This document shows positions 25,165 to 48,619 of a stretch of 48,619 nt of DNA, piece after piece. Made by a program: the position numbers and the translations under genes. Numbering within the stretch: position 1 is the stretch's first letter; every line of letters begins with the position of its first letter. Source of the stretch: Solirubrobacterales bacterium (GTDB lineage Bacteria; Actinomycetota; Thermoleophilia; Solirubrobacterales; 70-9); contig JADGPJ010000011.1 of assembly GCA_017882505.1 (NCBI GenBank), positions 1 through 48,619 of the forward strand, written 5' to 3'. The notes under the pieces were generated by a model. The model worked only from the letters and a program-made list of their open reading frames with translations. It searched no databases and was not told where the DNA came from.

Positions 25165-25247
25165 CGGCGCGGATACTCGTCCTTGACCTGCTTGGTCTCC
25201 CCACCGCCTTGCGCAGGACGCCGGGGCAGCGGGGCGAAAGACACTTC

Positions 25248-26135
25248 GTGAACTGGGAAACGGCGCTGTCCGAGTACGACCGCGATCTCCGCGCCCGCGG
25301 CTCGGCGGAGCGGACCAGGCGCGCCTACGCGGTCGATCTCGCCGGCTTCGTCGAGTGGGTCGGGCCGCAGGGGCTCGACCCCGGCGACGTTCGCCACCGC
25401 GACGTGCGCCGCTTCGCCGCCGGGCTCTCCTCGGCCGGCGCGGCGCCGGCCACCGTCGCCCGCAAGCTGGCGGCGATCCGCGGCCTCTACGGCTTCCTGG
25501 TCCGCACCGAGCGCGCCGGCCAGAACCCGGCCGAGCTGGTCTCCAGCCCGAAGCGCTCGGAGAAGCTGCCGAAGGTGCTCTCGACCGAGCAGATGCGCTC
25601 GCTGCTGGAGCGGATTTCGGCTCGCACGCCGCTCGAGATCCGCGACCGGGCGATGCTCGAGCTCGCCTACTCGTGCGGGCTGCGCTGTGAGGAGATCGTC
25701 AACCTCGACGTCGGCGCGATGGATTTCGACGGCGAGCAGCTGCGGGTGCTCGGCAAGGGCTCGAAGGAGCGGATCCTGCCGGTCGGAGAGCCCGCCCAGC
25801 GAGCGCTGGAGCGCTACCTGGAGCGCGGCCGGCGGGCGCTGGCCACCGATCCGCGCGAGCCGGCGCTGTTCCTCTCCAAGAGCGGCCGCCGCCTCTCGAA
25901 CTCCGATATCACCCGGCGATTGGGCCTCTGGACCCGCGAGGCGGCACTCGCCGCCGGCGTCTCGCCCCATTCACTTCGGCATTCCTTCGCGACCCACCTC
26001 TTGGAGGGCGGGGCGGATCTGCGTACGATCCAGGAGTTGCTCGGCCACTCCTCGATCTCGACCACCCAGGTCTACACCCGCGTCGACGCCGCTCGTTTGC
26101 GGGACACCTATGCGGCCAGTCATCCCCGCGCGTGA
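25248..26135 (+). CDS. XerC/XerD-type tyrosine recombinase
   Basis: From GTG 25248 the protein has 295 residues, the usual Xer size. An N-terminal SAM-like core-binding domain (ALSEYDRDLRARGSAERTR to GFLVRTERAGQNP) is followed by a catalytic domain. That domain has the arginine of SCGLRCEEI, HSLRHSFATHLLEGG (His-x-x-Arg), GHSSISTTQVYTR (His and nucleophile Tyr) and the beta-hairpin lysine in LGKGSKERILPV. It resolves chromosome dimers at dif. A TTG at 25209 is the alternative start. The position before the sigma factor gene matches housekeeping xer genes of actinobacteria rather than an island integrase. XerC and XerD cannot be separated here. Confidence 0.92.
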   Translation: MNWETALSEYDRDLRARGSAERTRRAYAVDLAGFVEWVGPQGLDPGDVRHRDVRRFAAGLSSAGAAPATVARKLAAIRGLYGFLVRTERAGQNPAELVSSPKRSEKLPKVLSTEQMRSLLERISARTPLEIRDRAMLELAYSCGLRCEEIVNLDVGAMDFDGEQLRVLGKGSKERILPVGEPAQRALERYLERGRRALATDPREPALFLSKSGRRLSNSDITRRLGLWTREAALAAGVSPHSLRHSFATHLLEGGADLRTIQELLGHSSISTTQVYTRVDAARLRDTYAASHPRA

Positions 26136-27430: not shown

Positions 27431-27838
27431 ATGACCAGGGTCACGGTCAACGTCGACGGTGGTGCCAGGGGCAACCCGGGCCCGGCCGCGATCGGTGTCG
27501 TCGTCCGTGGCCCGGACGAGAAAGTGCTCGAGGAGCTCGGCGAAGCGATCGGTCGCGCCACGAACAACGTCGCCGAGTACAGGGCGCTGCTGAGAGGGAT
27601 CGAGCTGGCGGCAGCGCACGGCGCCGACGAGCTGGAGCTGGTCGGCGACTCCGAGCTGGTGGTGCGCCAGGTCGAAGGCCGCTACAAGGTCAAGGACGCG
27701 ACTCTGCGCGAGCTTCACGCCGAGGCAAAGCGCGAGCTCGCTTCCTTCGACAGCTGGTCGATCCGCCACGTGCGCCGGGAGAGCAACGCCGACGCCGATC
27801 GCCTGGTCAACCGGGCGCTGGATGGCGCCGATGGCTGA
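27431..27838 (+). CDS. RNase HI family protein (ribonuclease H-like)
   Basis: The 135-residue single-domain RNase H fold carries the four catalytic carboxylates: Asp in NVDGGARGNPGPAAIG, Glu in NNVAEYRALLRGIELA, Asp in LVGDSELVVRQVEGRYKVK, and Asp in ESNADADRLVN. It is close to the actinobacterial and plant-type RNase HI group that lacks the basic protrusion of E. coli RNase HI. It would cleave RNA in RNA-DNA hybrids. The stop overlaps the start of the following VOC gene by eight bases. With RNase HII at 13.9-14.6 kb the cell has both RNase H types in this region. Confidence 0.92.
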   Translation: MTRVTVNVDGGARGNPGPAAIGVVVRGPDEKVLEELGEAIGRATNNVAEYRALLRGIELAAAHGADELELVGDSELVVRQVEGRYKVKDATLRELHAEAKRELASFDSWSIRHVRRESNADADRLVNRALDGADG

Positions 27839-33684: not shown

Positions 33685-33758
33685 GCGGCTGTAGCTCAGC
33701 TGGCTAGAGCGTCTGCTTGCCATGCAGAAGGTCGAGGGTTCGAATCCCTTCAGCCGCT
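33685..33758 (+). tRNA. tRNA-Gly (anticodon GCC)
   Basis: A complete 74-base cloverleaf. Acceptor arms GCGGCTG and CAGCCGC pair perfectly; the D-arm is GCTC/GAGC, the anticodon stem TCTGC/GCAGA with loop TTGCCAT giving anticodon GCC, and the T-arm GAGGG/CCCTT with loop TTCGAAT. The 3' CCA is not encoded. The 3' half of this gene recurs downstream at 34879 and 38102, making it a likely integration target. A strong hairpin follows it at 33764. Confidence 0.97.
33719..33757 (+). repeat. tRNA-Gly 3'-half, copy 1 (within the intact tRNA)
   Basis: This segment, from the anticodon to the end of the acceptor stem, is the reference copy of a direct repeat. It reappears at 34879-34916 and 38102-38147 in the same orientation, the arrangement expected of attachment sites of tRNA-targeting integrative elements. 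Confidence 0.7.
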
Positions 33759-33763
33759 TCACC

Positions 33764-33789
33764 GGAAACCGCGCTATGGCGCGGTTTCC
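33764..33789 (+). terminator. inverted repeat downstream of tRNA-Gly
   Basis: GGAAACCGCGC and GCGCGGTTTCC form a perfect 11-base-pair stem around the loop TATG, starting six bases after the tRNA. There is no long T-run, only CGCGTTTC, so it may act as a processing or termination hairpin rather than a classic intrinsic terminator. Confidence 0.55.
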
Positions 33790-33986
33790 GCGTTTCAGGG
33801 GTTGGAAGGCGTCGAAGCGTAGGAGTGAGGACTCGCGCTTTGCGCCCGATTGCGCCCGTTACGCGGCGCCGAGGGGGGTTGCGGTCGTTGATCGTGTCGT
33901 CCGCGACCGTCCATGCGGGCTGACGACGACCCTCCGGCGGGTGGCGGATACGCTGGCCCACGCATCCCAACCCGAGGAGAGACATC

Positions 33987-34796
33987 GTGTGCTTCGAGTT
34001 TGACGCCCTGCCCCCGCGAGTCCCGGAGAGCCGCGTCATCCCCGCGCTGGCGGGTGGCGCCGCCGCCGAGATGCTGACCCTGAAGAGCGCTGACGGAACC
34101 GAGTTTTCGGCCGCGCTGGCCGAGTGTCCGGAGCCGGTCGGCGGCCCCGCAATCATTGTGCTGCCGGATGTTCGCGGCCTCTACCGCTTCTACATCGCCC
34201 TCGCCGAGCGCTTCGTCACCGCCGGCTACCACGCGATCGCGATCGACTACTTCGGCCGGACCGCGGGGATCGGCGAGCGTGGGGAGGATTTCGACTTCAT
34301 GACCCACACGATGCAGACCACGCCCGCCCAGGTCCAGGCCGACGTCGCGGCGGCGCGGGCGGCGCTCGCCGAGCGAACCGGGGCCGACGGCTTCGTCACC
34401 CTCGGGTTCTGCTTCGGCGGCGCCCAGTCGGACCTCTGTGCCACCAACCCGGAGTTGGACCTCGACGCCGTCATCAGCTTCTACGGGATGCTGGAACCGG
34501 CCCGGGCGGGGATCGAGTCCGAGCACTTCCCAGCGCCGCTGAAGAACGCCGAGGCGATCAGCAAGCCGGTCCTGGCCCTGTTCGGCGGCGCCGACGACCT
34601 GATCCCGCCGGAGGACATCGAGGCCTTCGACGCCGCTCTCACGACCAGCGGGGTCCCGCATGAGGTCCACGCCTACCCGGGCGCCCCGCACTCGTTCTTC
34701 GACCGCTCCTACGAGGAGTTTGCCGAGGCCTCGGCAGACGCCTGGGAGCGAGTTCTCGACTACCTCGGCAAGATCGGGACCGCCACTCCCGCCTGA
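33987..34796 (+). CDS. dienelactone hydrolase family protein
   Basis: From GTG 33987, behind GAGGAGAG, the protein has 269 residues of the DLH-type alpha/beta-hydrolase fold. The nucleophile is a cysteine (TLGFCFGGAQSD), the acid is in LFGGADDLIPP and the histidine in YPGAPHSFFDRSYEEF, the full Cys-Asp-His triad of the family. VLPDVRGLYRFYIALAERF is also typical. It lies alone in the segment between the tRNA-Gly and the first downstream copy of its 3' end, so it may be cargo of a small integrated segment. The natural substrate is unknown. Confidence 0.9.
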   Translation: MCFEFDALPPRVPESRVIPALAGGAAAEMLTLKSADGTEFSAALAECPEPVGGPAIIVLPDVRGLYRFYIALAERFVTAGYHAIAIDYFGRTAGIGERGEDFDFMTHTMQTTPAQVQADVAAARAALAERTGADGFVTLGFCFGGAQSDLCATNPELDLDAVISFYGMLEPARAGIESEHFPAPLKNAEAISKPVLALFGGADDLIPPEDIEAFDAALTTSGVPHEVHAYPGAPHSFFDRSYEEFAEASADAWERVLDYLGKIGTATPA

Positions 34797-34878
34797 GCGG
34801 AGACGGACTGCGGCCGCCGGTTCGCCCGCCCAGCGAAGTTCCCCGGGAATGCGCTCGGCATCCATTGGCGACTCCGCC

Positions 34879-34916
34879 GCCATGCCGAAGGTCGAGGGTT
34901 CGAATCCCTTCAGCCG
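34879..34916 (+). repeat. tRNA-Gly 3'-half, copy 2 (putative attachment-site remnant)
   Basis: 38 bases match the intact tRNA from the anticodon region to near the end of the acceptor stem, with one mismatch (CATGCCGAAG against CATGCAGAAG). The match stops before the acceptor stem is complete. No 5' half is present, so this is not a functional tRNA. The 34797-35005 stretch around it has no gene. Confidence 0.7.
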
Positions 34917-35005
34917 GGCAATTGCCTCGCCGGTGACCAGGAGGACAGCAAGTTTGCGTTGGCGCCTTGCGCACCGAAGCTCGCTCGGGGATGATGGCCC
35001 CGTCT

Positions 35006-35038
35006 CGTCTCATCCGTAGCTGCTTTGGAAATGAGACG
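35006..35038 (+). promoter_or_regulatory. inverted repeat in the leader of the secreted-protein gene
   Basis: CGTCTCAT (35006-35013) and ATGAGACG (35031-35038) are perfect 8-base inverted repeats separated by 17 bases. They lie directly before the GGAGG ribosome-binding site of the gene at 35050. They could form a leader hairpin or an operator for a dimeric regulator. Confidence 0.4.
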
Positions 35039-35049
35039 GAGGAAGCAAC

Positions 35050-35523
35050 GTGAAGCTCACATCGAAGTCCGCCCGGTCGAGGGCCTTTGCCGCTGTTGGC
35101 TTCTGGGTGATGCTCGCGGCGTTCACGGGTTCTGCCTACTCGGCACTTGCGAGCGGCAAGGGGTCCCCGGCCCCCAGGCCCGGAACCTATTCCGGATTCG
35201 ATGCCGCCGACACGATCAGCTTCAAGGTGTCGGCCAACGGGAAGATGATCACCGGCCTGTCGAGCACCTTCAATCCGGCAGCCGACTGCGGCATCCCCAC
35301 CAACGGTCAGCACGAGCGCTTCCCAACGCTCAAGATCAAGAAAGGGCACTTCAAGGGCTCCACGTCGGTAAACAGGGGGGCTGAGGAACACTTCGCGATC
35401 CGAGGGAGGTTCGTGACGCCAACCGAAGCGACGGGGAAGATAAGCGGCAACCTCAAGATTCGGTCTCTTCCACCGTGCAGCGCGTCGACGACCTTCACGG
35501 TCAAGCGCAAGGCGGGTCAATAG
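35050..35523 (+). CDS. secreted hypothetical protein
   Basis: From GTG 35050, behind GGAGG, the protein has 157 residues. A signal peptide (SRAFAAVGFWVMLAAFTGSA, cut near SALA) precedes a mature part rich in Ser, Thr, Lys and Gly. That part has beta-strand-like repeats (TISFKVSANGKMITGLSSTF; HFAIRGRFVTPTEATGKISG) and two cysteines (ADCGIP and PPCSAS). This looks like a small extracellular beta-sandwich; I do not recognise a named family. It lies in the segment flanked by the tRNA-Gly end copies at 34.9 and 38.1 kb. Confidence 0.75.
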   Translation: MKLTSKSARSRAFAAVGFWVMLAAFTGSAYSALASGKGSPAPRPGTYSGFDAADTISFKVSANGKMITGLSSTFNPAADCGIPTNGQHERFPTLKIKKGHFKGSTSVNRGAEEHFAIRGRFVTPTEATGKISGNLKIRSLPPCSASTTFTVKRKAGQ

Positions 35524-35573
35524 CTGCTGCGATTCTGCCCGATTCTGCCCGTTAGGTGCTGACTATCCTGGGC

Positions 35574-36032
35574 CTATCGGAAGGTTCCCGGTTGGCCGTT
35601 CTCGCGGGCGCCGTTGCAGTACTCGGCCATGTCCTGGGACCAGAACTCGACCACGTTGCCGTCCGGATCGGTGACGTAGATTGCCCGGCCTGGACCCAGC
35701 TGGATCGGCCCCTCGACCTGGCCCGCACGGGCTTCGACGCGGGCTTGAATCAGCTCTAACTCGGCGTCCTCGACGTGGAAGGCGAAGTGGACATGGACAC
35801 CGCCACGGCCACCAGCGAGACCGACCTGCTCCGTCCAGATGCCGAGCCGGGCGGACTCCCCGACGAGGTACCAGCAGCGCCCCTCGCGCCCCTCGCCGTA
35901 GAGGGTCTCCTCGAGGCCGAGCAGGTCACGGTAGAAGGCCCGGGAGGCCTCCAGGTCGGCGACCTCGAGGACCAGCTCGGAGATGCCGGTGACGGCTGGC
36001 GGCTTCTCTTCCACGCCTCCATCTAACCGCAC
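35574..36032 (-). CDS. VOC family protein (glyoxalase/bleomycin-resistance-like)
   Basis: The 152-residue protein shows a VOC module: GISELVLEVADLEASRAFYRDLLGLEETL, RCWYLVGESARLGIWTEQVGL, VHVHFAFHVEDAELELIQARVE, and RAIYVTDPDGNVVEFWSQD with the metal Glu. The start is GTG 36032. The frame is open further upstream through the decayed SnoaL gene, so the true start could be elsewhere, but the VOC domain itself is complete. It is in the accessory segment between tRNA-Gly end copies. Substrate unknown. Confidence 0.85.
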   Translation of the reverse strand: MRLDGGVEEKPPAVTGISELVLEVADLEASRAFYRDLLGLEETLYGEGREGRCWYLVGESARLGIWTEQVGLAGGRGGVHVHFAFHVEDAELELIQARVEARAGQVEGPIQLGPGRAIYVTDPDGNVVEFWSQDMAEYCNGARENGQPGTFR

Positions 36033-36086
36033 CGCGTCGGCGACGCAAGCTCGATGGCTGACCCGGCAACGGCGTCGGCGCCGGAA

Positions 36087-36360
36087 CTCGAGCTGCTCGA
36101 AGATGATGCAGGCGTCAACATCGAGGCGCTTACCGTTTCGCTCTCAGCTGTTGTGATGCACGCCGACCACGCGGCCGTCGTCATCTTCAATCACGTGTCG
36201 CAATTCGGCCTTGAAGGTCCCTCCCGTCTCGCCCCCTTACCGGCCGAATTGGGCAAAGGCCGCCTCGCGCCCCTCGTGGTCGCCAGCGATGGGGCTTCGC
36301 CCCGGGGTTGCCTCTCCGAGGTCGCCGGCGCGGTGCTCGAGCTGCAAGGCCGTACCGATG
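36087..36360 (-). pseudogene. SnoaL/NTF2-like protein, two in-frame stops
   Basis: Reading the minus strand in one frame gives ATPGRSPIAGDHEGREAAF, then AQFGR, a TAA stop (36237-36239), then GGETGGTFKAELRHVIEDD, DGRVVGVHHNS, a TGA stop (36144-36146), then ERNGKRLDVDACIIFEQLE. This is the core of a SnoaL-like polyketide-cyclase/ketosteroid-isomerase-fold protein in correct order without frame loss, broken only by nonsense codons. The N-terminal third is not recognisable. It lies directly upstream of the VOC gene, in the same frame, so the two may once have been neighbours in one operon. Confidence 0.65.
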
Positions 36361-36414
36361 GGCCTTGGAAGCGGAGACGGGCTTAACGAGCTTCTGCGAG
36401 AAGCTTTCCCCGTC

Positions 36415-36969
36415 TCAGTTAGCCGGCTCGACCTTGATGCTGCCCTGCATGAAGGGATGAATCGCGCACATGAAGTAGAGCGTCGTACCCGAGGACGCGC
36501 TGACCACCTGGGAGAACGACGTTCCGGGCTTTTCTCCGGTGAACCAGGAGTCACCCTTCTTGTTGAGGTTGCCCATCGTGCTCCACCCTTCAGGCCCGGC
36601 TTTCGCGGGATTCTTCGTCGGAGGGCTTTTGCCGTTGGAGCCCTGCCATTTGGCGATCGCCATGCAGATGTGATTCGGGGTGAAGCAGTTTTCCTGCGCC
36701 GAGTGCGATTTTGGCAGCGACCCCTTGGTCACCAGCGAGAAGGTATGCGGGCCGACCTGCTTTGGATTGGTCGTGTTGACGATTTCCAGATCGTCACCGC
36801 GGCTCACGGTCTTCGGGCCGACGAACTTCAGGTTTCCTTTCACGATCTTGATTTCGATCTTGTCGGTTTTGGGGGTCGTCGTCGTTTCGGCTCCGGCGAG
36901 ACCGGGCCCGAATAGGGCAAGCGCGGTGGCGGCCAAGGCTACGATGGCAAGAGCGAGGCGCTTTCTCAT
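36415..36969 (-). CDS. secreted cupredoxin (plastocyanin-like) protein
   Basis: From ATG 36969 (AGAAAGGGA upstream) the protein has 184 residues. A signal peptide (RKRLALAIVALAATALALF, cut near LAGA) is followed by a type-1 copper domain. Ligands appear as His in QVGPHTFSL and the C-terminal Cys-His-Met set in YFMCAIHPFMQGSIKVE. A long insertion with HSAQENCFTPNHICMAIAKW carries two more cysteines. It is probably an extracytoplasmic electron carrier or copper binder; the partner is unknown. It lies in the accessory segment between tRNA-Gly end copies. Confidence 0.87.
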   Translation of the reverse strand: MRKRLALAIVALAATALALFGPGLAGAETTTTPKTDKIEIKIVKGNLKFVGPKTVSRGDDLEIVNTTNPKQVGPHTFSLVTKGSLPKSHSAQENCFTPNHICMAIAKWQGSNGKSPPTKNPAKAGPEGWSTMGNLNKKGDSWFTGEKPGTSFSQVVSASSGTTLYFMCAIHPFMQGSIKVEPAN

Positions 36970-37306
36970 AGTGGTCCCTTTCTGCTCCGTGGGCCGCCCC
37001 GGCAGGGGAAGTACAGCGAACCTATTCCGGCCATCGACCAGGCGCAACCCCAGTTCTCGGTCAGGGTGGACGAAGGACATTTGGCCACGTCAAAGGCAGT
37101 TATCACCCACGTTCGCTGAGAGCGTTCTCAGGGGAGGCACGAGAGCCAGCCCGGCTCCTGACTGTCATATCGCGGACTTTCAGATCCAGATCCCGGCGAT
37201 GCCGTCGCCCAAGCGGACGTCCTTGACGGGTCGCTGGCGAGGACGCGGTGGAGGGTCCAGTAGTCGAAGTCTTCTGCTGATCGCACCCGGGAGGCACAAT
37301 GGGGAG
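36970..37306. other. 337-base intergenic region, no gene recognised
   Basis: Lies between the divergently transcribed cupredoxin and RodZ-like genes. Short open frames exist on the minus strand, but none has a ribosome-binding site or family resemblance. It should contain promoters for both genes; I cannot point to convincing boxes. Confidence 0.5.
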
Positions 37307-38080
37307 ATGGACGGTGGCGTAGGCGCAACGTTGCGAGAGGCGCGCGCCCAGCGCGGGATCGACCTTGCCGAGGTTGAAGCCTCGACCAAGATCCGGGCGC
37401 GGTTTCTGCGTGCTATTGAGAACGAAGAATGGGACCTGCTGCCCGGCGAGTTCTCCACTCGCGCCTTCATACGTGGATACGCGACCTACCTGGGCCTGGA
37501 CGACGCTCGCCTGGCGGAGGAGTACGGGCGGGGTTACAGCCCCGCCAGACCGGCGGACCGGCTGCCTCGGATCGACTCCGCACCGCCGCAGCTGGCTGGT
37601 TCCGTGCGCCCGAAGCGTCTCTCGCCACGCCTCGTGGCCGCGATCGCCACGGTCGCGCTGGTCGCCGTTCTCGTGACGATCGGGCTGTCGAGTCTGGGCG
37701 GCGGATCGACCCGCCCGTCACGACTCCACCATCAAGCTGGCGGCGGGCGGGATGCCGCCGCGGGTCACACCGAGCAGCCTCCCGCGCAAGAGAAACCCGG
37801 TACGAGCTTGAGCCTGACGGCGACCGCAGAAGTTTGGGTCTGCTTGCTCGACGAACACGGCCGGGCGCTGATCGACGGCCAGATCCTCAGCCCCGGATCG
37901 GAAGAGGGTCCGTACCGCTCCGGTAGCTTCACGGTCTCGCTCGGCAACGGGGAGGTGACGATGACCGTGGAAGGACAAGCGGCGAGCATCCCGCAGACCC
38001 CCAACCCGATCGGCTTCTCGATCGATGGCGGCGGCGCGCTTCGCGAACTGCCCGAAGGTGAACGGCCCACCTGCATGTAA
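37307..38080 (+). CDS. RodZ-like helix-turn-helix membrane protein
   Basis: From ATG 37307 the protein has 257 residues. The N-terminal HTH_25 domain reads GATLREARAQRGIDLAEVE, STKIRARFLRAIENEEWDLLPGE and FIRGYATYLGLDDARLAEEY. A membrane helix follows (LVAAIATVALVAVLVTIGL, about 108-126). After a Gly/Pro/His-rich linker comes a C-terminal extracytoplasmic domain (TSLSLTATAEVWVCLLDEHG) resembling DUF4115 of RodZ. RodZ links MreB to the cell wall; no mreB is nearby, and the role here is inferred only. An ATG at 37299 is in another frame. It ends 21 bases before the third tRNA-Gly end copy. Confidence 0.85.
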   Translation: MDGGVGATLREARAQRGIDLAEVEASTKIRARFLRAIENEEWDLLPGEFSTRAFIRGYATYLGLDDARLAEEYGRGYSPARPADRLPRIDSAPPQLAGSVRPKRLSPRLVAAIATVALVAVLVTIGLSSLGGGSTRPSRLHHQAGGGRDAAAGHTEQPPAQEKPGTSLSLTATAEVWVCLLDEHGRALIDGQILSPGSEEGPYRSGSFTVSLGNGEVTMTVEGQAASIPQTPNPIGFSIDGGGALRELPEGERPTCM

Positions 38081-38101
38081 TCCGTGCCGGAATCGTCCAA
38101 C

Positions 38102-38147
38102 GCTTGCCGTGCAGAAGGTCGAGAGTTCGAATCTCTTCAGCCGCTTC
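38102..38147 (+). repeat. tRNA-Gly 3'-half, copy 3 (putative attachment-site remnant)
   Basis: 46 bases match the intact tRNA-Gly from the anticodon stem through the acceptor stem and four bases beyond, with three differences. Two of them are paired: the T-stem reads GAGAG/CTCTT instead of GAGGG/CCCTT, so base pairing is kept. No 5' half is present. Confidence 0.7.
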
Positions 38148-38241
38148 CGGCATCCCGTCGGTATCTTCTTCGGCGCTCCTACTGCCGAATCAGCGCCGCC
38201 TCGACCCTATGCCGATCGGGCGGCGGCTGGCAAGGTGCCGC

Positions 38242-38247
38242 TAGGGT
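38242..38247 (+). promoter_or_regulatory. putative -10 box (TAGGGT) of the 86-residue gene
   Basis: TAGGGT ends seven bases before ATG 38255, without a Shine-Dalgarno sequence between. This fits the short-leader pattern of other genes in the window. Confidence 0.3.
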
Positions 38248-38254
38248 CCAACCC

Positions 38255-38515
38255 ATGGTCTATGCCTTCAGATATGTACCCGCCGGCGGCGAGCCGCAGC
38301 CAGTTGGAACAGGAGAGGGCAGTGGCGACACGGCCGCTCTCGACGCGTTCAAGGATCTTCGCGATCAGAGTGCAGGCGTCGGACTGCCCGCTGGGGAATA
38401 CCAGTACAAGGCGATGGATGAGGGAGGGATTCCGGGCGTCATGCCCGGCGTCTCGGTCGGCCCCGATTTTTGGGCACCGTTGATCTTGGACCCAGACGGA
38501 ACCATCAATATCTAG
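38255..38515 (+). CDS. small hypothetical protein
   Basis: From ATG 38255 the protein has 86 residues: a strand MVYAFRYVPAGGEP, a helical region DTAALDAFKDLRDQSAGVG, and a Gly/Pro-rich end finishing PDGTINI. No signal peptide, membrane segment or known motif is visible. It follows the third tRNA-Gly end copy by 107 bases. Its evidence is the well-behaved composition and the upstream -10-like box. The frame also extends upstream, through the tRNA fragment, but that part is not credible as protein. Confidence 0.5.
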   Translation: MVYAFRYVPAGGEPQPVGTGEGSGDTAALDAFKDLRDQSAGVGLPAGEYQYKAMDEGGIPGVMPGVSVGPDFWAPLILDPDGTINI

Positions 38516-38622
38516 ATCGCTCGTCACGGGTTCGCCCCCTTGCGCCCGCTGGCAACCGTCGGTTAGCGTCGAAGCCCAGGCCCCAAGTGGGGGTCGACAC
38601 GACTCCGAAGGGATGTCCTTTG

Positions 38623-38913
38623 ATGGCAATCCTCACGATGTTTGAGATCCACGGCAACACCGACCAGTTGGTGGCAAAGATGAACCAGCTCTTCGACGCC
38701 GATGCGAACAAGCTCGCGGGCGAGCATGGCGGACTCTCCAGCACGGTTGTAGGGACCGAGCAAGGGGTCATGGTCGTCAACCGCTGGGAGTCTGAGCAGG
38801 GGATGGAGGCGTTCGCGGCGGTGATGCGTCCTCGGGCCGAAGCGGATCAGATCGGTGAGCAGACTGGCTGGCGGATGTTTGAGGCCCTGATCGACAGGAC
38901 GCCGAGCGATTAG
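38623..38913 (+). CDS. ABM-like (dimeric alpha/beta-barrel) small protein
   Basis: From ATG 38623, with GAAGGGA upstream, the protein has 96 residues. The pattern ILTMFEIHGNTDQLVAKMNQ, HGGLSSTVVGTEQGVMVVNRWES and GMEAFAAVMRP resembles antibiotic-biosynthesis-monooxygenase-type ferredoxin-like folds (strand-helix-strand-strand-helix). No catalytic residue set is clear. TTGCGC (about 38540) and TAGCGT (38564) with about 17 bases between could be its promoter. Function unknown. Confidence 0.72.
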   Translation: MAILTMFEIHGNTDQLVAKMNQLFDADANKLAGEHGGLSSTVVGTEQGVMVVNRWESEQGMEAFAAVMRPRAEADQIGEQTGWRMFEALIDRTPSD

Positions 38914-38983
38914 CGCCGGCACTCGGCGCAAAGCCTTTGGAAAGCATTTAGGAAGGCCATGGGCCGGCTGAAGAAAGCTCCGG

Positions 38984-38989
38984 TAGCGT
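38984..38989 (+). promoter_or_regulatory. putative -10 box (TAGCGT) of the 66-residue gene
   Basis: TAGCGT ends seven bases before ATG 38997 with no Shine-Dalgarno sequence between. The same hexamer occurs upstream of the 96-residue gene. Confidence 0.3.
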
Positions 38990-38996
38990 CGCACCC

Positions 38997-39197
38997 ATGA
39001 GCAATGCCAAGTCATATTTTCGGGTCCTGGACGTATTTGTCGCCGAGGCCCGAGTCGGTCGCATCGGTCGAGTGGTCACCGGGGGCCGGGAAGACCCAAG
39101 CTGGGAAAAGTCGCGCGGTGCTCGGGGGTGGATCAACGGCCATGAGGTCGGCGACCCCAACCCACGCTTCGCGCATATCGGTCGCAGCCACGACTAG
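38997..39197 (+). CDS. small hypothetical protein
   Basis: From ATG 38997 the frame has 66 residues (MSNAKSYFRVLDVFVAEARVG to NPRFAHIGRSHD), soluble and slightly basic, with no recognised motif. Support is limited to a plausible composition and a -10-like hexamer. The following stretch, 39198-39407, shows no recognisable gene. It could be a chance frame. Confidence 0.4.
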   Translation: MSNAKSYFRVLDVFVAEARVGRIGRVVTGGREDPSWEKSRGARGWINGHEVGDPNPRFAHIGRSHD

Positions 39198-39407
39198 GCG
39201 AACCCGGGGTCTGCCGCTGCTAGGGGACCTTGCAGTCACGGGCGCCTGGACCGGGCGGCGGCCCGTGGGCGCAGAACACGATCCCGCGCCGAAGAAGCGC
39301 CCAGTCGCGCCCGATCGAGCCTAATCCGAGACCGGTCGAGCAGTTCGTCGGGCGAGCCGTGAACCGCTCTGGACAGCCGAAAAGAAGGACTTGAGACCGC
39401 CTGGCCG

Positions 39408-39704
39408 TCAACTCTTGGGCGCCTCGTCGCCTGCCTTGCGTCCGCTCAGCGTGTCCCGGCGCTCGCGGTACTCCTCGGGGGAGATCTCGCCATTGGCGAG
39501 ACGGTGTTCGAGCACTTCGATCGCGGTGCTCGCACCGTGGCCGTGTGAAGTCGCGGTGAGGGAGCGCACCAGCCAGACGATGCCGACGATCACAAGACCC
39601 CAGAACGCGACCATCAGGAAGGCCATGAGAATCCACCAGCCGGCGCCCCAGTCGCTCATGTGGTTGCCCCAGCCCATGTTCGCCAGCGGCAAGGAGACAA
39701 GCAT
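39408..39704 (-). CDS. membrane protein with C-terminal SHOCT domain
   Basis: The 98-residue protein has a Trp/Gly-rich N-terminus (MGWGNHMSDWGAGWW) running into one membrane helix (ILMAFLMVAFWGLVIVGIVWLV). A His-containing linker (TATSHGHGAS) is followed by a SHOCT domain, EVLEHRLANGEISPEEYRERRDTL. SHOCT is a short C-terminal helical-hairpin module of bacterial membrane proteins, probably for oligomerisation. It is the second gene of a pair; the first, six bases upstream on the same strand, also ends in a SHOCT domain. Confidence 0.85.
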   Translation of the reverse strand: MLVSLPLANMGWGNHMSDWGAGWWILMAFLMVAFWGLVIVGIVWLVRSLTATSHGHGASTAIEVLEHRLANGEISPEEYRERRDTLSGRKAGDEAPKS

Positions 39705-39710
39705 CCTCGG

Positions 39711-40421
39711 TCAGCTCCCTTCCAGTAGTCGTTTGCTCTCCTCGTACTCCTCGGCGGTCAGCTCCCCGTGGGCATAGCGCCGCTTCAGCGTCTCCAACGC
39801 GCCGGTGCCGCGGCGCCGGGCCAGCAAGAGGACTGCGACCGCGACCCCTCCGATCAAGATCGCCATCATCCCCACCATCGCCGCCGCTGAAGGCCCGTTT
39901 ACGTCGTCGTCGCCGGCTCTCGCCCCCGACCAGTCGCCCCCCATCATCCCTGGTCCGTAGCCGCTCCCATTCCCGCCCATCATGCCGGGGCCGGAACCGT
40001 CCGATTCGGGGCCGTAGCCGCCGCCGTACATCATCCCCGCCATCGGACCCATCCAGCTCGAAGCCGGGCCACCCCGACAATCGGCGTAGCGGTAGCCGAG
40101 CGCCATGTGCATGCGGCGCTCGCCGGTTTCTCCCATCATCAGGGTCATCCGTCGGTTCATCGCGGCGTGGGTGGCTTCGTCGCCCAGGTAGCTCCCCATC
40201 GCGTACTCCCCGATCAGCTCGAATTCATCGGCGGAGAGATCGGAACATTGCTTTTCTCCGGATCGCACCGCTTCGGCGATCCCTTCGCCCTCTCGTTCCT
40301 CTTGGGCCAGGGTGGGCGCGGCCGCGGCAATCGGTGATCCGACGGCGCCGAATGCCAGGAATGCCAATCCCGTCGTCAGCGCGAGAATCGTGACCCATCG
40401 TGGGGCGAGCGGGTGCATCAT
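39711..40421 (-). CDS. secreted/membrane Met-Gly-rich protein with C-terminal SHOCT domain
   Basis: From ATG 40421 (GTGGAGC upstream) the protein has 236 residues. A signal peptide (ILALTTGLAFLAFGAVGSPI) is followed by an extracytoplasmic helical part with two cysteines (GEKQCSDLSADEFELIG; YRYADCRGG) and Met/His-rich runs (RMTLMMGETGERRMHMALG). A Met/Gly-rich low-complexity stretch (GPMAGMMYGGGYG) comes next, then a membrane helix (AMVGMMAILIGGVAVAVLLLA) and a SHOCT domain (LKRRYAHGELTAEEYEESKRLL). The Met and His clusters suggest metal, perhaps copper, binding; this is inference only. It pairs with the smaller SHOCT protein downstream. Confidence 0.82.
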   Translation of the reverse strand: MMHPLAPRWVTILALTTGLAFLAFGAVGSPIAAAAPTLAQEEREGEGIAEAVRSGEKQCSDLSADEFELIGEYAMGSYLGDEATHAAMNRRMTLMMGETGERRMHMALGYRYADCRGGPASSWMGPMAGMMYGGGYGPESDGSGPGMMGGNGSGYGPGMMGGDWSGARAGDDDVNGPSAAAMVGMMAILIGGVAVAVLLLARRRGTGALETLKRRYAHGELTAEEYEESKRLLEGS

Positions 40422-40563
40422 CTGAAGCTCCACGACCCCATCCTCGCCTGGAAGCCGCCTCACCGCTTCCGTCCAAACCACCAGGGACGATGCGGGAAAC
40501 CCCTGACGGACTGTCCGCCGAAGGCTCGCGGTGACCGGCCCTGGGTGGGCCGCGGGTCGGGAG

Positions 40564-41811
40564 TTACGGATTGGTCGGCTCCAGCCCGATCAGGTCGAAA
40601 TAGCCGACCAGGTAGAGGTGTCGGGCGTCGGACACGACGGGCGTGTAGCCGGCCGTGTCCAGCTGGAAGACCTTGCGATGGGTGCGGACGTCGATGCCGA
40701 TCGCGTCGTGCGTGTCGAAGCTCGAGGTGTAGACGGTGTGGTCGATCACCACGGCCGTGCCCGGTACCGGCCCGCCGACGTCGTAGTGCCACCGCAGCTT
40801 GCCGCTGCGGGCGTCCAGCGCGTAGAAGCGGCTGTTTTCGGAGCCGATGTAGATGGTCGCCGGGGTACCGGGGACCCTTGCCGCCGCGGGCGAGCCGTAG
40901 ATGGGGGCGCCGGTCGGGAAGGACCATGCGACCTTGCCGGTCCTTTCGTCGAAGGCGAAGACCGTGCCGTCGTTGCGGGCCGCGTAGACGCGGCCGAAGG
41001 AGATCGAGGGGGAGGAGTAGAAGCCGCCCTCTCCGAACGGCGGCACCCTGGTGGTGTTGGTGCGCCAGACCGGTCTGCCGGTGGCCGCGTCGAGCGCGAA
41101 CATCGCCCCCAGGTAGTCGGCGACGAAGAGGCGCCCGTGATGGAAGCTGGGACTGGCTTTGATCGCGCCCGGCGAGTCGAAGCGCCAGAGGAACTTCCCG
41201 TCGGAGGCCCGCAGAGCGACGACGTCGGTCTCGTCGTCCCCGAGGTAGATACGACCCCCGACGGCCATCGGCGAGGACTCGAGGTGGGCGTGGAGGTCGC
41301 GCTTCCAGACCAGCTTCCCGGTCGCCGCATCGACCGCGACCAGGTCGCCGTCGAGGAAGGCGAAGAAGACCTTGCCTTCGTGGTAGGCCGGCGCGGTGAC
41401 GTCGGTCGGGTTGCCCTTGTCCTCCGGGTCGGCAAGCCGCTGCCAGAGGATCTTGCGATCCCGCAGCCGCACGGCTTTCGCGTTGCCGTACTTGTTGACC
41501 ACGTAGGCGACGCCGTTGGCGATCGCGGGGGGGAACTCGATCAGCGCGTGCGTGTCGATCGACCAGGCCTGGCGCAGAGGAGGGTCGAGCGCCCGGTTCC
41601 TGACCGGCAGGTAGTGCGTGCGCTCCGGCAACCTCCCGAACAGCGGCCAGGCGACGTGGTAGGTGACCCTCTCGGTCGGCCCCGTCGCCTTTCCGGTCGA
41701 TTCGTTCCTTTCCGTTTCGCCGGAGCTGCCACCACAGCCCCCGAGTGCGACCAAGCCCAGGGCCAGCGCCAGGACGGCGAGGGCGGAGAGCCTTGCGGGA
41801 ATCGTGCGCAT
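40564..41811 (-). CDS. PQQ-like beta-propeller lipoprotein
   Basis: From ATG 41811 the protein has 415 residues. The signal peptide ends in a lipobox (LVALGGCGGSSG), so it is probably a lipoprotein on the outer face of the membrane. The rest is a beta-propeller of repeats of the PQQ/Pyrrolo-quinoline type: VVALRASDGKFLWRF, MFALDAATGRPVWR, VFAFDERTGKVAWSF and FYALDARSGKLRWHY. The AxDxxTGKxxW pattern is seen in each. Binding of PQQ itself is not shown; BamB-like scaffold roles use the same repeats. A TTG start seven codons upstream is less likely. Confidence 0.9.
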   Translation of the reverse strand: MRTIPARLSALAVLALALGLVALGGCGGSSGETERNESTGKATGPTERVTYHVAWPLFGRLPERTHYLPVRNRALDPPLRQAWSIDTHALIEFPPAIANGVAYVVNKYGNAKAVRLRDRKILWQRLADPEDKGNPTDVTAPAYHEGKVFFAFLDGDLVAVDAATGKLVWKRDLHAHLESSPMAVGGRIYLGDDETDVVALRASDGKFLWRFDSPGAIKASPSFHHGRLFVADYLGAMFALDAATGRPVWRTNTTRVPPFGEGGFYSSPSISFGRVYAARNDGTVFAFDERTGKVAWSFPTGAPIYGSPAAARVPGTPATIYIGSENSRFYALDARSGKLRWHYDVGGPVPGTAVVIDHTVYTSSFDTHDAIGIDVRTHRKVFQLDTAGYTPVVSDARHLYLVGYFDLIGLEPTNP

Positions 41812-41878
41812 TCCGTTGTCCTGTATCGGCAACGTGCTGCGGATGCGAGAGGGCGGAAGGTCGAAGGCGCCGACGTCG

Positions 41879-42013
41879 CTAGCGGCCGGCGCCGCACTTC
41901 TGGCATTCCTCGTCGTGGGTCCAGAGCCGGGTTACGCGATCGCCGATGACGTTCGCGGGGGCAGGACTCCACTGATGCCGACAGACCACCTGCTTGACTT
42001 TCTGCTTCAGCAT
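41879..42013 (-). CDS. 44-residue zinc-ribbon-like mini-protein
   Basis: A short frame from ATG 42013: MLKQKVKQVVCRHQWSP, then GDRVTRLWTHDEECQKCGAGR and stop. The CxHxW near the front and the CxxC near the end resemble the metal-binding pattern of small actinobacterial and phage zinc-ribbon proteins (Cys-x-His ... Cys-x-x-Cys). It has no clear Shine-Dalgarno sequence. It lies between the lipoprotein gene and the large L,D-transpeptidase gene, on the same strand as both. The motif order is unlikely by chance, but a gene this short stays provisional. Confidence 0.5.
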   Translation of the reverse strand: MLKQKVKQVVCRHQWSPAPANVIGDRVTRLWTHDEECQKCGAGR

Positions 42014-42425
42014 CACGCGGTCGAGCGGAGAGGGCATCGGCAAGGCACGCACGAATCTCTAATCGGCAACTCGGCCGCCGAACTTCAGTCCCGCGGGAAA
42101 TTTCCTTTGCGGATGTGGTTCAGCGGACCGCGCCGGCTTCGGCCGCCGCCCGAAGCTGCCATAGTGGTTGTCGTTGGACGCTGTAACGGACGGAATCGTC
42201 CGAGCTGAAGACAAGGGACTGCGCAGCCGCGTGGTCCCACTCGCGTTCTGGGGCCTTTCTCGGGTCTTCACGCCCTGGGTCGAATTCGGCGGACCGCGAA
42301 AATGCCGGTCGACGACGATCCGGTCGTCCGTCGCGGGTGGGCTTGCGGTCGCTGGGGAGCTTTCGCGTTTCATGGGCGGTAGGTACGCAGAACGCACCAA
42401 TGCCGTTCAACCCGACTGGTCGTGC
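42014..42425. other. 412-base region without a recognised gene
   Basis: Lies between the mini-protein start and the end of the large L,D-transpeptidase gene. Several open frames cross it on both strands, but none resembles a known family or has a good start. Short inverted repeats (GGACG/CGTCC around 42189-42202) are present. It may hold the terminator of the transpeptidase gene and the promoter of the minus-strand genes beyond. Confidence 0.5.
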
Positions 42426-44072
42426 CTACGATTCGACCGTGACCAGGGTGCCGACCGGCGTGTAGGGCCAGATCTTGGCGGCGTCTTCGAGCCGCATCTC
42501 GACGCAACCGAGGCTCTGCGGGCTGCCGTAGGAGGCGCGGTCGAAGCTGTGCAGGGCGTCGCCGCCGTTGAAGTAGCTGACCCACATGATCCCGGGGTCT
42601 TCGTAATGGGAGCCGTCGGGGTTTTCGCCACTCATCGTCGTTTCTTCGAGGTGCTCGAAGACGGGGAAGGTCCCGAGTTCGGTTTCGGCGCCGGGGATGC
42701 CGGTGTTGGCCGGCACGCTGACGACGATGTGTCCGTTGTGCCAGAGCGTCGTCTTCTCGGGCAGCGTCTCGCTGACGTAGACATAGCTGTAGCCGGGTTC
42801 GGAGCTGCGCTTGCCGGCGATCGCGTCTTCCAGCAGGGCGCTCCAGACTTCGGCCCCGGGTTCGCCGTCGGGTTCCATTTCGTGCTGGGTCTCGAACGCC
42901 ATCAGCGCGCCTTCGGTGACGACGCTTTCTTCGCCGGGCGTCCAGGCTTTCTTCAGGCTCGCGGGCGTGTTCGGGTAGCGCCATTCGAAGCTGCCCTTGG
43001 GTGGTTCGACCGCGGCGCGCAGCTCCCCGGCCGGGGTCTTGGCGACGGGGGCGCTCTTGGGCTTCCACTCGACCGGCAGATAGCCGGCGTCGGCGAGCAG
43101 CTGCTGCAGCCGCAGGGTGGATCCCGGCGGGATCGTCCAGTCGATGCTGCGCGAGGTGTGCAGCGAGCCGTCTTCGGCGATCACGGCGACCTTCTCCGGC
43201 AGCTTCACTTCGACGTCGGTGCTGAGCCCGGCGCCGTAGCCCGAGGGCCGGAAGAGCAGGGTGTGGCGGTCAACCTGGTGCCAGCTGCCGGAGGCACTGG
43301 GGATCAGCTTCGGCTTGGCCGAGCCGAGCACCTTGTGGACCGGCTGGGAGAAGGTCAGGCGCAGCGGTGTCGCCGGCGAGACCTCGGAGCCGGGCGCCGG
43401 GCTTGCGGCGACGCTGGGGGAGTCGCTGGCGGGGAACCAGGTGACGCTCTGCGGCTTGCCCGGCCGCTCCCAGGTGCGGGGAACGCCGGCGACGATGACG
43501 GTGCCGGCGGCCTGCTGGGAGCCGAGGCTGACCGAGCTGCGGGGGTGCGCGAAGGCGCGGTGGTGAAGGTGACCGGGGGTCCCATAGGAGACGGAGCTGA
43601 CCGGTTGATCGAAGGAGACCCTGGGCGGGGAGTTGGGGCTTACGGTCAGCCAGCGGCTGCGGACTCGCGCCGCGGGGGCGTGCAGGGTCAGGTGCTCGTG
43701 CTTTTCGCTGCCGACCAGCCAGCCGACCAGGCTGGGGCGCTTGACGACGACGTCGACCGAGACCGCCTCTCCGGGACTGAGCTGCAGCTTCGGGATCAGG
43801 CGGCCGTTGTGAACCGCGATCGGGATCGGCTTCCCGTCGGGTCCGGTGGCGTCGACCCGCTCGATCGTGCCGCCGAAGGTTTCGGTTTCGACCTTGGCGA
43901 GGGCGCTCGGATCCGAGCTCAGGCTCGATCCCGACATCGCGAAGGCGACGACCCCGAACCCGGCCAGGACGATCACCACGACCGCGCCGACGATCAACGC
44001 GGCGCGCAGACGCCAGCGGGAGTGTTGCTCCGGCGCAGAGCTGGCGTCGAGCTGCGGCTCCTCGTTCACCAC
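42426..44072 (-). CDS. large L,D-transpeptidase (YkuD) with Ig-like domains
   Basis: The 548-residue protein has an N-terminal membrane anchor (LRAALIVGAVVVIVLAGFGVVAF). Beta-rich regions follow (about 60-330), including SEVSPATPLRLTFSQPV, an Ig-like pattern. A peptidoglycan-binding-like stretch (LRLQQLLADAGYLPVEWKP) comes next, and a C-terminal YkuD domain ends in LHSFDRASYGSPQSLGCVEM with catalytic His and Cys. The active site reads SLGCVEM, unlike the SHGCVRM of the enzyme at 24-25 kb. It probably forms cell-wall cross-links outside the membrane. A divergent enoyl-reductase-like gene starts 111 bases upstream. Confidence 0.9.
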   Translation of the reverse strand: MVNEEPQLDASSAPEQHSRWRLRAALIVGAVVVIVLAGFGVVAFAMSGSSLSSDPSALAKVETETFGGTIERVDATGPDGKPIPIAVHNGRLIPKLQLSPGEAVSVDVVVKRPSLVGWLVGSEKHEHLTLHAPAARVRSRWLTVSPNSPPRVSFDQPVSSVSYGTPGHLHHRAFAHPRSSVSLGSQQAAGTVIVAGVPRTWERPGKPQSVTWFPASDSPSVAASPAPGSEVSPATPLRLTFSQPVHKVLGSAKPKLIPSASGSWHQVDRHTLLFRPSGYGAGLSTDVEVKLPEKVAVIAEDGSLHTSRSIDWTIPPGSTLRLQQLLADAGYLPVEWKPKSAPVAKTPAGELRAAVEPPKGSFEWRYPNTPASLKKAWTPGEESVVTEGALMAFETQHEMEPDGEPGAEVWSALLEDAIAGKRSSEPGYSYVYVSETLPEKTTLWHNGHIVVSVPANTGIPGAETELGTFPVFEHLEETTMSGENPDGSHYEDPGIMWVSYFNGGDALHSFDRASYGSPQSLGCVEMRLEDAAKIWPYTPVGTLVTVES

Positions 44073-44183
44073 TCAGAGAATAGGCAGGTGAACCGATGGT
44101 CCCCGAGAGTGGACGGCTGTCTGAAAGCAATCTGCCGACCCTCGGAGAGGGGTGTGGCCGCTGAGTTGTCAGAATGCCTCCCC

Positions 44184-45368
44184 GTGGAGGCTGAACGGCA
44201 ATACGACCTCGCGCTGTTCGGTGCCACCGGGTTCACCGGCGGTCTCACCGCCCGATACCTGGCCCAGCATGCGCCGGAGGGGCTGCGCTGGGCGCTCGTC
44301 GGTCGCAACCGTGGCAAGCTCGAGGCCGTCGCGTCGCAGCTCGCGCAGCTCGAGCCGGCGGCACCGGCTCCCGACCTGCTCGAGGCCGATGCCGCCGACC
44401 CCGCCGCCCTGGCGAAGGTCGCGGTGGCGGCAAGGGTCGTGATCACGACCGTCGGGCCCTACGCGCTCTACGGCGGGCCGCTGGTCGCCGCCTGCGCCGC
44501 GGCCGGGACCGACTACGTCGACCTCACCGGCGAGCCGGAGTTCGTCGACCGGATGTGGGTCGAGAACCACGCCGAAGCCGAGCGGACCGGGGCACGGATC
44601 GTCCACTGCTGCGGCTTCGACTCGATCCCGCACGACCTCGGCGTCTACTTCACCATCCAGCGGCTGCCCGAGGGGGTGCCGCTGAAGGTCAACGGCTACG
44701 TCCGCTCCAGCGCCAGCTTCTCGGGCGGCACCTACGCCTCGGCGATCAACGCCTTCGCCCGCTTCCGCCAGACCCTCGGCGCCGCCAAGCAGCGCCGTCA
44801 CTCCGAGCCGCGCGCGGAGGGGCGGGAGATCCACTCCTCCGCGCCGGTCGTTCGCCGCGACACCGACCTCGGCGGCTGGGTCGTGCCGCTGCCGACGATC
44901 GACGGCACGGTCGTCCGCCGCTCCGCCGCCGCGCTCGATCGCTACGGCCCGGACTTCACCTACGGCCACCACATGGTCAGCCGCCATCTGAGCACGATCG
45001 CCGCGATCTCGGCCGGGGTCGGCGCCGTTGCCCTCCTGGCGCCGCTGCCGCCGGCGCGCAAGCTGCTGCTGAAGGTCAAGTCCTCCGGCGAGGGGCCGGA
45101 CGAGGCCGAGCGCGAGCGCAGCTGGTTCCGGGTCCGCTTCGTCGGCGAAGGCGGTGGCAAGCGCGTCGTCACCGAGGTCTCCGGCGGCGATCCCGGTTAT
45201 GGCGAGACCTCGAAGATGCTGGCCGAGTCGGGTCTCTGCCTCGCCTTCGACGAGCTGCCGCCGAGCGCCGGCCAGGTGACGACGGCGGTGGCGATGGGTG
45301 ACGCACTTCTCACGAGGCTGCAGAGGGCGGGAATAGCCTTCAGCGTGCTCGAGCCAGCGGAAGCCTGA
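44184..45368 (+). CDS. saccharopine dehydrogenase-like NAD(P)-binding protein (trans-acting enoyl reductase type)
   Basis: From GTG 44184 (VEAERQYDLALFGATGFTGG) the protein has 394 residues. The Rossmann motif GATGFTGGLTARYL is followed by WALVGRNRGKLEAV, VVITTVGPYALYGGPLVAACAAAGTDYVDLTGE, and HCCGFDSIPHDLGVY. This is the pattern of mycobacterial trans-acting enoyl reductases (Rv2953-like) and related saccharopine-dehydrogenase-fold proteins. In mycobacteria they act on phthiocerol-type lipids; no polyketide synthase is nearby, so the role here is open. A GTG 30 bases upstream is an alternative. The monooxygenase gene follows after two bases, implying coupled function. Confidence 0.88.
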   Translation: MEAERQYDLALFGATGFTGGLTARYLAQHAPEGLRWALVGRNRGKLEAVASQLAQLEPAAPAPDLLEADAADPAALAKVAVAARVVITTVGPYALYGGPLVAACAAAGTDYVDLTGEPEFVDRMWVENHAEAERTGARIVHCCGFDSIPHDLGVYFTIQRLPEGVPLKVNGYVRSSASFSGGTYASAINAFARFRQTLGAAKQRRHSEPRAEGREIHSSAPVVRRDTDLGGWVVPLPTIDGTVVRRSAAALDRYGPDFTYGHHMVSRHLSTIAAISAGVGAVALLAPLPPARKLLLKVKSSGEGPDEAERERSWFRVRFVGEGGGKRVVTEVSGGDPGYGETSKMLAESGLCLAFDELPPSAGQVTTAVAMGDALLTRLQRAGIAFSVLEPAEA

Positions 45369-48229: not shown

Positions 48230-48490
48230 ATGGACGACCAGCAGGTACTCAGCCGCATCGACGAGCTCGTCAAGGAGGAGGAGGATCTTCTCCACCGTCA
48301 CGAGGCCGACGGCCTCAGCTCCGAAGACCACGCCCGCCTGGAGGAGCTCAAAGTCCAGCTCGACAAGGCCTGGGATTACCTGCGCCAGCGCCGCGCCCTC
48401 CGCCAGTACGGCGAGGACCCCGACGAGGCCAGCATGCGCGACGGCGGCACCGTCGAGGGCTACGGCACCGTCAAGGACTACGAGGGCTGA
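48230..48490 (+). CDS. DUF2630 family protein
   Basis: From ATG 48230 the protein has 86 residues with the typical DUF2630 layout: VLSRIDELVKEEEDLLHRHE, LSSEDHARLEELKVQLDKAWD and YLRQRRALRQYGEDPDEASMR. It is mostly helical, with two charged helices followed by a conserved RRALRxxGEDPDEA segment. The family is common in actinobacteria and of unknown function. It stands alone, just before tRNA-Cys. Confidence 0.92.
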   Translation: MDDQQVLSRIDELVKEEEDLLHRHEADGLSSEDHARLEELKVQLDKAWDYLRQRRALRQYGEDPDEASMRDGGTVEGYGTVKDYEG

Positions 48491-48548: not shown

Positions 48549-48619
48549 GGCGCCTTGGCGGAGTGGCTACGCAGCGGCCTGCAAAGCCGTTTACACCGGT
48601 TCGATTCCGGTAGGCGCCT
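48549..48619 (+). tRNA. tRNA-Cys (anticodon GCA)
   Basis: A complete 71-base cloverleaf ending exactly at the window edge. Acceptor arms GGCGCCT and AGGCGCC pair, the anticodon stem is GCGGC/GCCGT with loop CTGCAAA giving anticodon GCA, and the T-arm is ACCGG/CCGGT with loop TTCGATT. The discriminator base is T; CCA is not encoded in what is visible. Confidence 0.95.

Follow-up and report, generated by a model that had tools for sequence, protein, structure and literature searches.

The tRNA-Gly(GCC) gene of a Solirubrobacterales bacterium, a soil actinobacterium (contig JADGPJ010000011.1 of assembly GCA_017882505.1) is followed by two displaced copies of its own 3' half, which bound two short islets without an integrase. 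These islets very probably hold foreign genes and are what is left of at least two site-specific insertions, made in succession, whose integrases have since been lost, a decayed tandem accretion of the kind known from cis-mobilizable elements (CIMEs). The 48,619-nucleotide stretch analysed, hereafter the window, is contig C20 of genome G000 (2.63 Mb in 127 contigs, 93% complete). The original prediction had placed direct copies of the 3' half at 34879–34916 and 38102–38147, dividing the region into islets of about 1.1 and 3.2 kb devoid of an integrase. ARAGORN, used for tRNA calls, together with a repeat search and BLAST of the own genome, placed the copies exactly there, to the base; the islets measure 1,118 and 3,185 bp, and the searches for an integrase inside them (PF00589 profile, tblastn) were negative.

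33685–33758, + strand: tRNA-Gly(GCC), the presumably restored target gene (ARAGORN)
33761–33792, + strand: strong terminator-like hairpin directly 3' of tRNA-Gly (fold of 33756–33800)
33761–34878, no strand: islet 1, 1,118 bp, without integrase (BLAST, PF00589, tblastn)
34879–34916, + strand: displaced 3' half, tRNA positions 35–72 (BLAST of own genome)
34917–38101, no strand: islet 2, 3,185 bp, without integrase (BLAST, PF00589, tblastn)
38102–38147, + strand: displaced 3' half, presumably older, tRNA positions 31–76 (BLAST of own genome)

The repeat search returned three in-register copies, at 33715, 34875 and 38102. In the BLAST of G000 the proximal displaced copy matched the tRNA with one mismatch (97% identity, E 9e-12) and the distal copy with three (93%, E 2e-13), while other tRNA-Gly matches in this genome were only 75–80% identical; chance as the source of the copies is excluded. 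The computed anticodon loop of the tRNA is the 7-nt TTGCCAT, closed by the stem TCTGC/GCAGA, which we presume to be the crossover region and the core sites, respectively. The loop reads CCGCCAT in the proximal copy, whose stem, loop and acceptor end have decayed (CTCCG CCGCCAT GCCGA), and TTGCCGT in the distal one. The T stem of the distal copy is GAGAG/CTCTT, as compared with GAGGG/CCCTT in the tRNA, so that pairing is kept via a compensatory change from G-C to A-U. Because this pair preserves the stem and is absent from all 40 full-length tRNA-Gly rows, the distal copy probably represents the 3' half of a once-working tRNA that was later replaced. A further partial copy was detected on contig C45 (3522–3566; 45 nt, 100%, E 7e-17) between an MFS transporter gene and an amino-acid permease gene, on a contig bearing neither a tRNA nor an integrase. 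That C45 represents the far end of the array is unlikely, as C20 is unbroken as far as tRNA-Cys.

To place these copies in a wider context, tRNA-Gly was compared by BLAST with 61 genomes (partial copies were counted among the matches listed, so that all counts are lower bounds), and the window was set beside 60 other loci. The fetched loci and the window hold at least 19 partial copies of the 3' type in 12 genomes: three in G000, two each in G002 and G003, four in G010, and the remainder in G005, G007, G015, G019, G022, G032, G033 and G044. They start at tRNA position 30–35 in 14 of 19 cases, at 19–28 in three and at 47–49 in two; under uniform starts over positions 1–50, and with the copies treated as independent, such clustering has a P of about 8e-10. 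The two copies that start at 47–49 (G015, G010) lack the loop and may not be attachment (att) scars. Copies of the opposite, 5' type (at least one each in G005, G008, G022 and G035) end at position 39–41 in four of four cases, and the overlap between the two types is exactly TTGCCAT, the anticodon loop framed by TCTGC/GCAGA. This arrangement matches the 7-bp overlap with a flanking palindromic stem that has been described for tyrosine recombinases targeting tRNA genes (PMC8371274). A mechanism without any integrase (segmental duplication of the ordinary kind, or illegitimate recombination, around this gene) would accord with islets that carry none and with a cargo resembling ordinary family genes. 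On the other hand, it would have to produce, in 12 genomes, copies that mostly break at the same loop and do so from both sides, next to a tRNA that integrases adjoin in relatives (see below), and we regard it as very improbable.

Both empty and filled versions of the site are seen in relatives. In genus g11 (G021, G028, G036) tRNA-Cys begins no more than ~50 nt after tRNA-Gly, and the same spacing occurs in five of 19 named loci (L112, L114, L116, L120, L126), some of which possibly belong to the same genomes as the G-labelled ones; tRNA-Gly thus seems, as far as the compared sequences go, to have stood ancestrally beside tRNA-Cys. Within the genus of the window, tRNA-Gly of G009 directly precedes a helicase gene (F09, ResIII/DEAD), while in G002 the two are separated by an islet of 2.8 kb and a displaced 3' half, and a displaced 3' half lies just ahead of F09 on contig C82 of G010. 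Two displaced halves in G010 carry T/A in the T stem in place of the A/T of the present tRNA. G001 is the closest relative by XerC (92%); its tRNA, identical over positions 1–50, departs at four T-stem places in the 3' half. These differences fit a replacement of the 3' half by incoming elements. The window itself retains flank genes of these relatives next to the original neighbour of its tRNA-Gly.

38148–44180, no strand: two small open reading frames (ORFs), two SHOCT proteins and a PQQ beta-propeller, with no counterpart at the compared relatives' loci
44181–45365, + strand: ancestral flank gene F08, common to G001, G002 and G009
48230–48463, + strand: ancestral flank gene F14, common to G002 and G009
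48549–48619, + strand: tRNA-Cys(GCA), original neighbour of tRNA-Gly (ARAGORN)

The helicase gene F09 is missing from the window, although F08 and F14 are kept. Taken together with the empty and filled sites of relatives, this places both islets, and perhaps the sequence up to ~44.2 kb, in an insertion zone, and the insert-rich part seems to extend past 38147 towards tRNA-Cys at 48549. The original prediction held that the same gene order with its repeats, conserved across the whole class, would speak for old duplications rather than mobile insertions. No such conservation appeared, the dienelactone hydrolase, 157-amino-acid (aa) ORF, VOC (VOC2), cupredoxin-like and rodZ genes of the islets being found at no tRNA-Gly locus of a relative among the 60 loci compared.

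The PF00589 profile, combined with PHROG matches, was used to identify integrases; it finds them in all genomes searched, most of the strong matches near tRNA-Gly being housekeeping XerC. Integrases of another kind adjoin this very tRNA in several relatives. In G005 and G008, tyrosine integrases of 351 and 437 aa (78% identical) end ~19 bp 5' of tRNA-Gly, the G005 5' element spanning 5 kb with a displaced 5' half at its far end, and a remnant of this type persists in G035 (73% over 41 aligned residues). On the 3' side, a 339-aa integrase (G025) and a 199-aa remnant (G044, with its displaced half ~33 kb off) are convergent on the tRNA-Gly 3' end, and a further integrase lies near a displaced half on contig C115 of G010. 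Both sides of a single tRNA-Gly are used within G005. On a 68-kb IMG/VR contig, of which 6.2 kb was read, the gene of a 441-aa integrase adjoins a tRNA-Gly 3' half starting near position 25, as would be expected of an attP, and PHROG integrase matches were obtained for five of the tRNA-adjacent integrase proteins, the viral one among them. As to known phages sharing this att, the 15 listed of 782 phage-collection records were near-full tRNA matches (tRNA-Gly where annotated), with no 3' halves among the matches listed. Overall, the loop-clustered boundaries, the empty and filled sites and the integrases or remnants at the same tRNA bear out the proposal that the repeats are scars of tyrosine-integrase elements, and tRNA-Gly(GCC) is an integration hot spot in Solirubrobacterales.

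A side observation on the 5'-restoring elements of G005 and G008 is that they give the tRNA a new upstream region, the last 20–30 nt being near-identical (L021, L031); their insertion may swap the tRNA-Gly promoter. A CTGCAA motif, noticed by eye ~40–50 nt ahead of the displaced copy in G010 and G019 and also after the tRNA in G005 (L022, L023, L024, L067), may be an integrase arm site.

By the PF00589 search, the only integrase on the window contig is XerC (25209–26135), and no adjacent integrative and conjugative or integrative and mobilizable element able to mobilise the islets in cis was found there. In most examined loci of the order a Xer recombinase is encoded no more than about 20 kb from tRNA-Gly, which might suggest a resident integron-like system with XerC acting on the tRNA-Gly sites. 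The role of XerC is chromosome dimer resolution. Its mltG-xerC-whiG-rnhA order is conserved also where the tRNA has no partial copies, and the orientation of the tRNA relative to xerC flips, which makes such a system scarcely credible. XerC was rejected as the islet integrase on account of this housekeeping synteny. Nor does the locus look like an integron, with only XerC nearby, no IntI-type integrase beside attI and folded attC sites, and repeats that are tRNA 3' halves. In G002 (L020) and G009 (L033), compared with window positions 27800–48600, the block lying between VOC1/rnhA and F08/F14/tRNA-Cys, which contains the MBL-rhodanese gene, tRNA-Gly and the F09 helicase, is inverted, and tRNA-Gly also faces rnhA in other families of the order.

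The cargo of both islets is ordinary or accessory. Gene families were assigned by Pfam at a cut-off of 0.01.

33987–34796, + strand: dienelactone hydrolase family gene (PF01738, 1e-40)
35050–35523, + strand: 157-aa ORF, probable secreted protein of no family (ORF list, Pfam, PHROG)
35574–36032, − strand: VOC/glyoxalase-family gene (PF00903, 1e-10)
36040–36410, − strand: possible SnoaL-like pseudogene (stop-broken reverse-strand peptides, judged by eye)
36415–36969, − strand: cupredoxin-like secreted protein, extra copy (paralogue on C31, 68% identical)
37307–38080, + strand: RodZ-like HTH gene (HTH_25, 3e-21; RodZ_C, 6e-5)

Among the labels originally given to these genes, dienelactone hydrolase, VOC and RodZ-like were upheld by Pfam, while SnoaL and cupredoxin found no support there: at the above cut-off there was no match for the 157-aa ORF, the "cupredoxin" or the forward ORF over the "SnoaL pseudogene". 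The cupredoxin call is plausible nonetheless, given the C-terminal CxxHxxM motif of the protein and its weak similarity to copper nitrite reductase (E 0.15); the gene has matches in 19 of 50 family genomes, with a second copy in G000. The dienelactone hydrolase gene is accessory (matches in 6 of 50 family genomes at E≤1e-20, its own counted), and the RodZ-like gene, the sole match in G000 and 51% identical to the next best (G031), has matches in 24 of 50. Islet 2 has a G+C content of 64.6%, as against 70.1% upstream. No transfer genes were found among the Pfam matches of islet genes. None of the five PF00589 places in G000 falls inside the islets, and tblastn with nine integrase sequences revealed no integrase remnant there, its only strong matches being tRNA DNA translated by one query. 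The 3' islets of relatives carry AbiEii-type genes (G002, G005), a D12 methyltransferase together with a DndB/DpdB-like protein (G010) or a DUF5122 propeller (G022); the AbiEii and DNA-modification genes make a defence hot spot on the 3' side of tRNA-Gly possible (L021 and L020 islets, L022 island).

The original prediction had left it open whether the islets are decayed, mobilised in trans or accreted by successive insertions; a combination of decay and accretion fits best. Continued mobility, with the islets as cassettes on whose anticodon-loop sites an integrase from a gene elsewhere acts in trans, would be in line with the frequency of integrase-free 3' islets among those with both ends on one contig. 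Seven of eight are of this kind (two in G000, one each in G002, G005 and G022, and two in G010, one of them bounded by a loop-less copy), the exception being G044 with its integrase remnant; adding G015, whose distal copy lacks the loop, makes it eight of nine. The 5'-side integrase of G005, moreover, shares the anticodon loop with a 3' islet. On the other hand, tyrosine recombinases need matching overlap sequences, and the 7-bp loop differs among the window sites. A search of the genome for integrases and further repeat copies, as originally suggested, yielded the C45 copy and, besides Xer, a 210-aa remnant by tRNA-Val(CAC), a broken integrase by tRNA-Asn(GTT) and an ORF cut by a contig end; no intact phage-type integrase was found, though one could be missing from an assembly only 93% complete. 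Because of this and because both displaced copies have mutated crossover loops, we judge mobilisation in trans at present to be unlikely and the islets to be apparently immobile remnants. The remnants by tRNA-Val (L129:3873–4505, C110) and tRNA-Asn (L130:3543–4292, C108), both convergent on their tRNAs, are two more decayed tRNA insertions, so that decay is general in G000. A broader and rather doubtful possibility is that this one anticodon loop serves Solirubrobacterales as a shared two-sided attachment hub, where unrelated elements restore the 3' or the 5' half of tRNA-Gly, an integrase on one side can move integrase-free islets on the other, and cassettes (AbiE-type and DNA-modification genes in relatives included) are slowly collected.

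Under the favoured reading of decayed successive insertions, at least two integrative elements would have entered tRNA-Gly(GCC) in succession, each through a tyrosine integrase crossing over in the 7-bp anticodon loop. With each arrival the tRNA would have been made whole again by the 3' half of the element and the previous half displaced downstream, making the copy at 38102 the older event and that at 34879 the newer; the integrase and transfer genes of both elements would then have been deleted, leaving short gene-bearing remnants between old attachment sites. We infer the order of events, the loss by deletion and the arrival of both islets as such elements rather than by later shaping. Several observations weigh against this scheme. 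The proximal copy lacks positions 31–34 and 73–76, and its putative att origin is read from position and similarity only; folding reveals no terminator-like hairpin after it, as compared with the one following the tRNA (−24.5 kcal/mol, z −4.5). Islet 1 has a host-like G+C content of 69.9%, the cargo is not phage-like (five window proteins had no PHROG match), and among the relatives compared none has either islet intact with an integrase, so that the source elements were not seen.

The locus is a record of an integration hot spot in an actinobacterial order that has been little studied and is mostly uncultured, and it illustrates the extent to which an island can shrink with its tRNA scars still present. 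It also offers a ready attachment site, the tRNA-Gly(GCC) anticodon loop, along with candidate integrases. Among the matches listed by literature searches on Solirubrobacterales islands and on tandem islands without an integrase, none describes this locus; it is a genuine instance of a familiar process, not a new one. That elements use both sides of a single tRNA in the same genome (G005) is less usual, each side being known singly.

As in tRNA islands, an intact tRNA is accompanied by a same-orientation displaced fragment on the proper side with its breakpoint in the anticodon loop; the islets are nevertheless remnants, not complete islands, because no integrase gene lies inside them. Tandem accretion and CIMEs of the Streptococcus ICESt1/CIME302 type are described in PMC5704250. 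The islets resemble these as att-bounded remnants without integration or transfer genes, in tandem at one target gene; they differ in their smaller size (1.1 and 3.2 kb), the lack of a functional cis neighbour, their partly degraded sites and their uncultured Solirubrobacterales host. Candidate attL and attR sites are present, with mismatches in their loops. We call the islets CIME-like rather than proven CIMEs because the window contig has no adjacent integrase other than XerC. More than a dozen ssrA repeats and 15 islands lacking an integration module are described in Dehalococcoides (PMC3146451), where likewise many direct repeats lie downstream of one tRNA-like gene; there, however, a serine recombinase and the tmRNA T-loop are involved, in contrast to tyrosine integrases and the tRNA-Gly anticodon loop here. 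The Islander collection (PMC4383910) comprises 3919 islands, of which 3760 have a 3' and 159 a 5' fragment; 2083 are anticodon-centred, and 125 tandems hold two or more islands and 4 three or more. The window shares with them the tRNA and the displaced fragment in the same orientation, but Islander admits only islands that contain an integrase and are no shorter than 2 kb, which would exclude both window islets, and catalogues built on such requirements miss remnants of this kind.

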